Source: Exiguobacterium sp. J17977
GTDB lineage: Bacteria; Bacillota; Bacilli; Exiguobacteriales; Exiguobacteriaceae
Reading direction: 5' to 3'
DNA length: 64,000 nucleotides
Assembly (NCBI RefSeq): GCF_018616375.1
Contig: NZ_JAEQBB010000003.1
Location: 186,001-250,000 of the forward strand
Every line of letters begins with the position of its first letter. Position 1 is the first letter of the stretch. Below, in pieces: positions 13,603 to 58,102 of this stretch. Made by a program: the position numbers and the translations under genes. Below the pieces are notes generated by a model. It saw only the letters and a list, made by a program, of their open reading frames with translations, ran no database searches and was not told where the DNA came from.

Positions 13603-13631
13603 TTGACAGCAAACCATTTTTCTATTATAGT
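13603..13631 (+). promoter_or_regulatory. Strong promoter of the tRNA-Arg gene
   Basis: TTGACA (13603-13608), 17-base spacer, TATAGT (13626-13631). Transcription would start near 13638, about six bases before the mature tRNA 5' end. Confidence 0.85.
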
Positions 13632-13643
13632 TTTCTTGTCAAT

Positions 13644-14003
13644 GTCCCAATAGCTCAGCTGGATAGAGCAACGCCCTTCAAGACAAATAGGAGCCTTTAT
13701 AGGGAAACAGAAACCTATAGAGTGGACGACACTATATCGGTGAAGCCTTAACAGATCATGCTGATGGTAATACCGAGGAAACTTATTTCCTTTCGGGGAC
13801 AAGATGGTTCGAAGGACTAAAGGTCATCCTTTAGAGGTAGAGCCATTGAAGGAGCAGTTTGCTCGTGAGGTTCCGTAGAGACTACACGTGTCGCACCTGA
13901 AATGGTGAAGATATAGTCCAGACTACAAACAACACACGTTGGTGGCGAAAGCCATGGTGGTAAGCTAAGGCGTCGGTCGGGGGTTCGAATCCCTCTTGGG
14001 ACA
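13644..14003 (+). tRNA. tRNA-Arg(UCU), interrupted by a group I intron
   Basis: Exons 13644-13678 and 13965-14003 join into a 74-nt tRNA with a complete cloverleaf. The acceptor stem GTCCCAA/TTGGGAC is perfect over 7 bp with discriminator A. The D-arm is GCTC/GAGC, the anticodon stem ACGCC/GGCGT, the anticodon loop CTTCTAA (anticodon TCT) and the T-arm GGGGG/CCCTC with loop TTCGAAT. CCA is not encoded. The anticodon reads the AGA/AGG arginine codons. The gene is only functional if the 286-nt insertion in the anticodon loop is spliced out. It has its own promoter and terminator. Confidence 0.95.
13679..13964 (+). other. Group I intron (IC3-like) in the tRNA-Arg(UCU) anticodon loop
   Basis: A 286-nt intron between anticodon nucleotides 34 and 35; the 5' exon ends in U and the intron ends in G, as group I splicing requires. 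Pairings seen: P1 exon CTT 13676-13678 with GAG 13691-13693 (terminal U.G); P2 13698-13703/13714-13719; P3 CGACAC 13727-13732/GTGTCG 13888-13893; P7 GACTA 13880-13884/TAGTC 13914-13918; P8 13894-13897/13904-13907; P9 13943-13954 with a GAAA tetraloop. The core text around P7 (GTAGAGACTA.. and AAGATATAGTCCAG) resembles the cyanobacterial tRNA-Leu and Azoarcus tRNA-Ile introns. There is no homing endonuclease. Splice sites are inferred; the C shared by both junctions leaves a one-base ambiguity. Confidence 0.9.
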
Positions 14004-14017
14004 CTTCCATTTAAAAT

Positions 14018-14051
14018 AGAGATAGCCTCCACGGAGGTTGTCTCTTTTTTC
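14018..14051 (+). terminator. Terminator after tRNA-Arg
   Basis: A 12-13 bp stem (14018-14030 with 14033-14045, two G.T pairs), followed by TTTTTT. Confidence 0.85.
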
Positions 14052-23741: not shown

Positions 23742-24659
23742 ATGCGTAAAATTATCGTCGGCTCGCGCCGCTCACAACTTGCGATGACACAGACGAAATG
23801 GGTTATCGATCAATTGAAGAAAGCCGGAGCTCAAAACGAGTTCGAAATCAAAGAGATCGTGACGAAAGGGGACCAAATCGTCGACGTGCAACTATCAAAA
23901 GTCGGCGGTAAAGGGTTGTTCGTCAAAGAGATTCAGCAACAGATGATTGCCGGTGACATCGATTTCGCCGTCCACAGCATGAAAGACGTTCCGGCCGAGT
24001 TGCCAGAGGAACTCTACATCAGCTGCATGCCGAAACGTGTCGACGCGCGTGACGTGCTCATCTGCGAGAACGGTTATACGCTCGAGACGCTTCCGGAAGG
24101 TGCCGTCATCGGGACGAGCTCGCTTCGTCGCGGTGCCCAGATGCTCGCAGCGCGCCCGGATTTAGACATCCAATGGATTCGCGGCAACATCGACACGCGT
24201 CTCAAAAAACTCGAGACAGAAAACTTCAACGCCATCTTGCTCGCCAAAGCCGGGCTCGAACGGATGGGGTGGACGGACCGTGTCGACTTCGAAGCGCTTG
24301 ACGCTGACATGATGGTCCCGGCCGTCGGACAAGGTGTGCTCGCCATCGAAAGCCGGAAGGACGACGCTGAAGTGACGGCGATTCTACAATTGCTTCACGA
24401 TGACGTGACGGCGAAAGCCGCAACGGCCGAGCGGACGTTCCTCAAGGCAATCGAAGGCAGCTGCCACGTACCGGTCGGCGGTTATGCGACGGTCGATGGC
24501 GACGACGTGACGCTCACAGGCCTCATCGCCTCGGTCGACGGCAAAGAAGTGCTCCGTGTGACGAAGACGTCGTCAGACGCGGTCGCACTCGGGAAAGACG
24601 TGGCAGACGACCTGCTCGGACGCGGCGGGCGCGAAATTCTCGCCTCGGTCAATGCGTGA
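23742..24659 (+). CDS. hemC: Porphobilinogen deaminase (hydroxymethylbilane synthase)
   Basis: Polymerises four porphobilinogens into hydroxymethylbilane. The 305-aa protein has GSRRSQLAMTQT at the N-terminus, the arginine-rich cofactor site (GTSSLRRGAQ, RGNIDTRL) and the dipyrromethane-anchoring Cys in EGSCHVPVGGY. ATG 23742 is seven bases after GAAGGGG, directly downstream of the terminator. It overlaps hemD by eight bases. Confidence 0.97.
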   Translation: MRKIIVGSRRSQLAMTQTKWVIDQLKKAGAQNEFEIKEIVTKGDQIVDVQLSKVGGKGLFVKEIQQQMIAGDIDFAVHSMKDVPAELPEELYISCMPKRVDARDVLICENGYTLETLPEGAVIGTSSLRRGAQMLAARPDLDIQWIRGNIDTRLKKLETENFNAILLAKAGLERMGWTDRVDFEALDADMMVPAVGQGVLAIESRKDDAEVTAILQLLHDDVTAKAATAERTFLKAIEGSCHVPVGGYATVDGDDVTLTGLIASVDGKEVLRVTKTSSDAVALGKDVADDLLGRGGREILASVNA

Positions 24660-27632: not shown

Positions 27633-27889
27633 ACAGATACGATTAAAAGCTACGATGAGGAATAGTACGCCAACAACATCCTTTTTCAGAGACGCGGCCG
27701 CTTGGTGCAAGGCCGCGAAGGATGGTGCGGAAGTCGCCTCGGAGCTGACCTTTTGAACGAAGTAGGAAGGTCCGGTCCATCGACCGTTATTCGATTTTGA
27801 GGGCGCCACATGTGGCGAACTAAGGTGGTACCGCGGAAGATACGGCTTCTTTCGTCCTTAGCGTTAAGGACGAGAGTAGCCGTTTTTTT
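27633..27889 (+). promoter_or_regulatory. Valine-specific T-box riboswitch
   Basis: Senses uncharged tRNA-Val and controls read-through into valS. Visible parts: a long Stem I region (~27650-27745) with AGTA- and GATGAGGAA-type loop text, a GTC valine specifier triplet at 27733-27735 in GGAAGTCGCC, the T-box AAGGTGGTACCGCGG at 27822-27836, and a terminator stem (CGGCT.. with ..AGCCG, inner CGTCCTTA/TAAGGACG) ending in seven T at 27889. Uncharged tRNA-Val would pair with GTC and the T-box bulge and favour the antiterminator. Specifier assigned by position and by the downstream gene. Confidence 0.93.
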
Positions 27890-57992: not shown

Positions 57993-58086
57993 CGTTAGTT
58001 CGTTTGGAAGCACCCAAATGGCTACAACCGCACAGAACGGGTTTAAATGGTTCCGCCCTGCCCTGGATGGCGAGTCTGAGTTTAAT
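57993..58086 (+). promoter_or_regulatory. Ribosomal protein L21 leader
   Basis: The 5' untranslated region of rplU has the form of the Firmicutes L21 leader: GTTCGTTTGGAAGCACCC near the start, an internal hairpin region and the closing text CCGCCCTGCCC..GGATGGCG, ending just before AAGGAGGTG. By analogy it binds a ribosomal protein (L21 itself is the usual proposal) and represses the operon. Recognised by sequence pattern and position, not by a covariance search. Confidence 0.8.
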
Positions 58087-58102
58087 AAGGAGGTGCACGT
58101 AT

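Follow-up and report, generated by a model that had tools for sequence, protein, structure and literature searches.

What interrupts the tRNA-Arg(UCU) gene of Exiguobacterium sp. J17977, can the gene still serve its host, and how did the interruption come to lie there? The gene is found on contig NZ_JAEQBB010000003.1 of assembly GCF_018616375.1. The stretch of DNA analysed here (the window) comprises 64,000 nucleotides of that contig, positions 186,001 to 250,000; coordinates are those of the window unless another contig is named, and all features of the locus are on the forward (+) strand.

An interrupted tRNA gene

Run with introns disallowed, ARAGORN detects no tRNA anywhere in the 64 kb of the window; when they are allowed, it reports a single tRNA-Arg(TCT) at 13644–14004 with an intron of 286 nt. 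An earlier reading of this DNA, made from its letters (the sequence-only reading), had proposed that a 286-nt insertion splits a tRNA-Arg(UCU) at 13644–14003, with a 5′ exon ending in U and an intron ending in G, and the intron-allowing scan and its junctions bear out each point. The 5′ exon (13644–13678; ARAGORN) ends with U33-U34, and the intron (13679–13964; ARAGORN, Rfam RF00028 and covariation) has G as its last base. The 3′ exon (13965–14003; ARAGORN and sequence) begins with C35-U36-A37 and closes with the discriminator base at 14003, CCA not being encoded. The junctions are CCCTT/CAAG and GTAAG/CTAAG: the intron runs from CAAGAC to GGTAAG, the 3′ exon begins CTAAGG, and the insertion breaks the anticodon between U34 and C35. 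Removal of the intron leaves a cloverleaf with a UCU anticodon, and the joined exons are identical to the intact alleles of two congeneric genomes (G009 and G017).

Just 5′ of the gene lies a promoter-like TTGACA-N17-TATAGT (13603–13631; 11/12 pattern matches), which is only suggestive, one such pattern being found against 0.8 expected in shuffles. A terminator-like hairpin with a T tail follows the gene at 14018–14045; it is one of two matches to its pattern in the stretch, where shuffles predict 0.3.

Structure of the intron

A default Rfam scan of the window did not include the intron among its matches. In the covariance-model check proposed by the sequence-only reading, RF00028 matches 13675–13936 (E=2.7e-4), but at 24.7 bits, half the gathering score of 50, which is a curated threshold and not a structural definition. 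Because the match falls below this threshold, the helices were placed by hand and then tested. An internal guide, GAG (13691–13693), forms a 3-bp P1 with exon CUU (C32–U34), so that the U at the end of the 5′ exon is paired with G. This is followed by the P2 hairpin (13694–13724), the 5′ strand of P3 (13727–13732, paired with 13888–13893), P4-P5-P5a (13737–13776), and P6 with its extension, the L6 domain (13777–13874), which in some relatives is the site of an endonuclease frame. Two helices of the P6 extension (13804–13809/13841–13846 and 13817–13823/13828–13834) are predicted by eye from the sequence. P7 (13880–13884/13914–13918) encloses the 3′ strand of P3 together with P8 (13894–13897/13904–13907), giving the P3–P9 core with its P3/P7 pseudoknot, and P9.0/P9 (13922–13926/13957–13961) contains an inner hairpin (13943–13954) with a GAAA loop.

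Two sets of sequences were used to examine these pairings. The first alignment comprised five Exiguobacterium introns, two introns of the phage LR756508 (in tRNA-Lys and tRNA-Arg(UCU)) and one intron of a Microcoleus phage (in tRNA-Arg(CCU)). In it, 98.3% of 291 cells are paired and 17 of 39 pairs show two-sided changes, whereas sliding the partners by 1–3 columns leaves 25–38% paired. None of 500 shuffles scored as high on four of five measures, and three of 500 reached the observed value on the fifth, the number of pair types. The second set, to which no controls were applied, consists of 49 relatives: 46 from genera known as Bacilli, one 'Mollicutes' metagenome-assembled genome (MAG) and two Bacteroidota MAGs. 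Here 2456 of 2498 cells are paired and 20 of 51 pairs show two-sided change; the counts of neither set are of independent events, as the first holds five close relatives and the second was not thinned.

All the pairings put forward by the sequence-only reading (P1, P2, P3, P7, P8 and P9) are present, and two-sided changes occur in P2, P3, P8 and P9; the alignments likewise underlie P4-P5-P5a and P6. P3 has them in five of six pairs in the first alignment and four of six among the 49 relatives, where P2a is paired in 286 of 293 cells with two-sided change in all six pairs. In P7 they come from the phage tRNA-Arg(UCU) intron of the first alignment, and none is seen among the 49. P1 is paired in 147 of 147 cells and never varies, the GAG guide being identical in 49/49 relatives. 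The invariance of P1, and of P7 among the 49, is thus consistent with pairing and is not covariation in its favour. Introns of subgroup IC3 resemble the tRNA introns of Azoarcus and Anabaena and have a simple P5 and P9. The architecture of this candidate IC3 intron fits that description, and the phage introns compared with it, in tRNA-Leu(UAA) and tRNA-Arg(CCU), align in part. The assignment of the insertion as a group I intron in tRNA-Arg(UCU) is supported by these sequence comparisons, and the intron is very probably a working one.

Distribution within Exiguobacterium

The sequence-only reading had also suggested a comparison of the locus across Exiguobacterium, and this reveals intron-less alleles. 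All 19 genomes of the genus examined have the tRNA-Arg(UCU) gene; 15 carry the intron, and four (G002, G003, G009 and G017) have an intact gene with an empty site. Fourteen of the 19, the window's own genome included, hold a near full-length intron of 86–100% identity, and in Exiguobacterium sp. s124 (G001) the intron is 632 nt long. Outside L6 the core hardly varies among members of the genus, and the exons are intact. Presence and absence are therefore polymorphic at one exact site. In a tree built from 2.8 kb of flanking sequence the empty alleles are dispersed: G002 lies beside G001 (support 75), G009 beside G004 (support 100), G017 beside the window's genome, and G003 is basal to its clade. 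These four empty alleles reflect either loss of the intron or its failure to invade. In another genus of the Exiguobacteriaceae, blastn matched none of 19 sampled genomes.

Distribution beyond the genus

When 398 genomes sampled from the class were searched with a covariance model (R1), 37 gave a match: the 15 of the genus, 16 others and six weak matches. The 16, out of 379 class genomes outside the genus, carry the intron within tRNA-Arg(UCU), inserted at the identical position (L127–L130 and L132–L143). ARAGORN with introns misnamed eight of the 16 loci as tRNA-Ser and one each as tRNA-Glu and tRNA-SeC because the junction was shifted, and the names were corrected from the junctions. The six weak matches (G100, G124, G184, G278, G286 and G351) have no intron-bearing tRNA by ARAGORN and were excluded from the tRNA-Arg(UCU) counts.

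A search of named genomes matched 59 stretches, of which 49 hold a complete tRNA-Arg(UCU) with an intron of 209–634 nt. Seven others have no tRNA arm and look like chance matches in protein-coding sequence; of the remaining three, two (L159 and L172) resemble 3′ remnants and one (L167) is truncated where the stretch ends. The 49 contigs comprise 46 filed under 25 genus names (10 of the contigs being Exiguobacterium), including Bacillus, Neobacillus, Priestia, Shimazuella, Melghirimyces, Kroppenstedtia and Domibacillus, along with MAGs labelled Cytophagales, Chitinophagaceae and Mollicutes. Upstream on the same strand, 43 of 50 loci (a viral copy counted) have rdgB and/or yfcE, 36 of them both. 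The seven without either gene include those three MAGs, along with three loci whose upstream sequence is shorter than 250 bases. The element is one that recurs at a single site in many Bacilli, and not an isolated case.

By blastn, 182 plasmid records matched, but in no case did the match extend over 80% of the query; among those listed, 20 in number, coverage was 16–20%, as two tRNA exons would give. In Bacillus sp. REN10 (L130/L131) a weaker second copy of the intron with the 3′ part of the tRNA lies about 11.5 kb from the full gene, and L127 has another such copy at 0.9 kb. The arrangement resembles what a mobile element integrating at the tRNA as its attachment site would leave.

Endonuclease genes in related introns

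No endonuclease is detectable in the window's intron (best E 2.9), as the sequence-only reading had it. Among the 49 related introns, an open frame for a PD-(D/E)XK endonuclease is present in four (L156, L160, L170 and L193), a broken copy in one and remnants in eight. The intron of Exiguobacterium sp. s124 has a 137-aa open reading frame (ORF) in its L6 domain, the only frame run against Pfam; residues 3–135 match PF11645 (E=1.6e-36), so that the PDDEXK_5 domain spans the whole protein. A PD-(D/E)XK endonuclease is also carried by the tRNA-fMet intron of Synechocystis. PDB 2ost, which we take to be the structure of I-Ssp6803I (the record names the chain 'putative endonuclease'), aligns weakly with the s124 protein by direct phmmer, at E=0.15, with D and QVK residues matching. 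The likeness to I-Ssp6803I runs through the s124 protein, by way of PF11645 and this alignment; the window's intron differs in having no such gene.

Related 137-aa proteins, 76 and 75% identical, are encoded in Bacillus sp. FJAT-14578 and Priestia abyssalis. In Paenactinomyces (L160) a 154-aa frame opens from an upstream ATG, with no ATG, GTG or TTG at the aligned start, and the Pullulanibacillus copy has internal stops. Fragments with E<1e-3 were found in eight shorter introns (L171, L204, L196, L178, L195, L207, L154 and L209); these E-values refer to a search among 51 introns made without composition correction, and those of L154 and L209 are soft. Some of the matches partly reflect the ribozyme, the DYREVP end of the protein being also a strand of P6. 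In the alignment, judged by eye, the ends of the ORF overlap two short P6-extension helices that introns lacking the ORF retain. An AlphaFold model of the endonuclease from a four-row alignment had a mean pLDDT of 39.2 and was set aside. Because the window's intron has no endonuclease remnant, its past possession of the gene is inferred from its congener s124. The window's copy and its relatives fit a putative homing intron that has lost its endonuclease.

Proposed splicing, homing and descent

We consider it highly probable that this is a self-splicing intron of a family spread by homing, and that the window's endonuclease-less copy is now probably inherited vertically. Group I introns are spliced by two transesterifications, the mechanism from which the chemistry is drawn here. 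In the folded transcript, P1 would form between exon CUU and the GAG guide of the intron, a guanosine would attack after U34, and the freed 5′ exon would then attack after the terminal G of the intron; joining of the exons would restore the UCU anticodon. The endonuclease encoded in L6 of some relatives probably cuts the intron-less tRNA-Arg(UCU) gene, with repair then copying the intron in. Homing is favoured because an ORF, a single insertion site and empty alleles occur together, and the window's copy, having no endonuclease, probably now persists by vertical descent. Open, decayed and empty alleles in one genus would allow homing, endonuclease loss and dependence on splicing to be tested side by side.

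Alternatively, the intron could be an ancient and purely vertical resident of the Bacilli, like that of cyanobacterial tRNA-Leu, which has been lost often and to which the endonuclease was a later visitor. Across 37 loci, intron distances and host (rdgB) distances are correlated (Spearman 0.36, with none of 999 permutations as high), from which it follows that spread has been partly vertical; the conserved rdgB and/or yfcE neighbourhood and the near-invariant core point the same way. However, the distribution is patchy both in the class outside the genus (16/379) and in the family (0/19), and endonuclease frames or fragments occupy L6 in introns from many genera. Distant hosts with rdgB 53–56% identical can also have introns 94–95% identical, which ribozyme constraint could also explain. 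Purely vertical descent is accordingly an unlikely account, but one that keeps some weight beside homing. The intron tree includes some L6 columns, and its placement of L156 is not trusted.

Possible dependence on splicing

The split gene would be dispensable were it a pseudogene, with AGA/AGG decoding carried out through another tRNA-Arg(UCU), and the sequence-only reading had counted a second intact gene, with this copy as a pseudogene, against its own proposal. A second intact gene does exist in the window's genome, at positions 24477–24550 of contig C27 (L008), so that the objection applies in part. It is divergent, and the 73.5-kb contig on which it lies (L215–L218) encodes a MobL relaxase, a type IV coupling protein, two ParA-like ATPases and a phage-type integrase, a gene content that is plasmid-like and resembles that of a conjugative plasmid. 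The contig also encodes a restriction-endonuclease-like protein. Of 34 tRNAs that Rfam finds in the genome, all read with ARAGORN, only one, this copy on C27, has the anticodon UCU; as the assembly is in 27 contigs, some tRNAs may be missing from this count. The split gene is the only chromosomal tRNA-Arg(UCU) gene found in the window's genome to read AGA/AGG.

Within the genus, a pattern for intact tRNA-Arg(UCU) matches only the four empty-allele genomes and the window's own among the 19; the same pattern, which finds the contig copy, finds none in the other 14 intron-bearing genomes. A looser pattern adds 21 places, spread over ten intron-bearing genomes, but ARAGORN recognises a tRNA at none of them. 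As these patterns find no intact alternative in 14 of 15 carriers, splicing presumably works there and seems indispensable. The claim of the sequence-only reading that AGA/AGG decoding depends on self-splicing is to be amended for the isolate itself, where the copy on the plasmid-like contig means that decoding need not rest wholly on splicing, and splicing may be backed up by it. With the exons intact and the ribozyme core conserved as well, a pseudogene is very improbable, and we reject this explanation in favour of a working intron. Chance or an assembly artefact, which the RF00028 score below the gathering threshold might have suggested, is dismissed, since the insertion recurs at the same base in 15/19 congeneric genomes and the other four have intact empty alleles.

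Relationship to known introns and to phages

Known bacterial tRNA group I introns have, like this one, a small core and a short P1. The available text of two papers (PMC4033280, PMC8450103) lists them for Cyanobacteria and for alpha- and betaproteobacteria; these share the anticodon-loop location with the window's intron but have other tRNAs as hosts, and no Bacilli are named there. The alphaproteobacterial tRNA-Arg(CCU) intron BbgpI is reported to be spliced in vivo and self-spliced in vitro (PMC7717549); it too lies in a tRNA-Arg and was missed by annotation, but in a different isoacceptor and lineage. A tRNA-Arg-TCT with a putative group I intron has been reported from Beggiatoa BOGUAY and Thiomargarita (MacGregor 2013, via PMC4853749), the intron type being undetermined according to the text available. 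The host tRNA is the same as in the window, although the hosts are not Bacilli. It follows that tRNA-Arg(UCU) is not new in bacteria as a host of group I introns. The sequence-only reading named no described case in tRNA-Arg(UCU) of Bacilli, and we found no description of such an intron in Bacilli in the open-licence literature searched, judged mostly by titles and the openings of abstracts. Taken together, these introns make up a new lineage within a known kind, one whose putative homing series is unusually complete.

Twenty-five phage records contain an endonuclease relative, whose surroundings were examined in the closest of them, Synechococcus phage Sf-FR1. An intact tRNA-Arg(UCU) there is followed 68 bases downstream by a free-standing, 53% identical gene, and R1 finds nothing at this place; the position of that gene next to tRNA-Arg(UCU) would make phages a plausible source or carrier. 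The end of this PD-(D/E)XK gene overlaps a tRNA-Val (stretch L214, 1051–1677). The relative in LR756508 is 31.5% identical and lies far from the intron-bearing tRNAs. Searching viral contigs with the endonuclease alignment produced pattern matches in 103 stretches, but tblastn confirmed none of them. Four viral stretches were considered as possible relatives of the intron itself: two (L210 and L211) have a tRNA-Arg(UCU) with a different but related intron, one (L212) has neither that tRNA nor a related intron, and one (L213) merely repeats the Pullulanibacillus intron, so that the set of 49 omits it.

A fuller proposition may be offered tentatively: that this is a homing family of the Bacilli in the anticodon of tRNA-Arg(UCU), for which Exiguobacterium usually has no other gene that could be found, undescribed in the literature searched, with all stages of homing preserved, ORF ends that double as helices, an endonuclease family aimed at tRNA-Arg(UCU), and phages as a plausible source or carrier. 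Taken jointly, these parts stand slightly below an even chance.

Other features

According to a 2014 review (PMC3984707), phage introns seen up to then were all in protein-coding genes. The 484-kb metagenomic phage LR756508.1 (L064) has group I introns in tRNA-Lys(UUU) and tRNA-Arg(UCU), in one tRNA cluster (1959–2227 and 2358–2609 of L064). An intron-bearing tRNA-Arg(CCU) is present in a Microcoleus phage (L065, 1813–2098), and an intron-bearing tRNA-Leu(UAA) in Agrobacterium phage Atu_ph07 (L066, 1751–2112), within a displayed stretch whose annotation names no tRNA. Elsewhere in the window's genome, contig C22 contains an odd tRNA-like gene (L057, 195101–195199), which ARAGORN reads as tRNA-His(atg) with a 27-nt intron and which scores 42.4 bits as an Rfam tRNA. 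The Rfam scan of the window itself also identified a T-box leader at 27643–27862 and a ribosomal protein L21 leader at 58016–58087.
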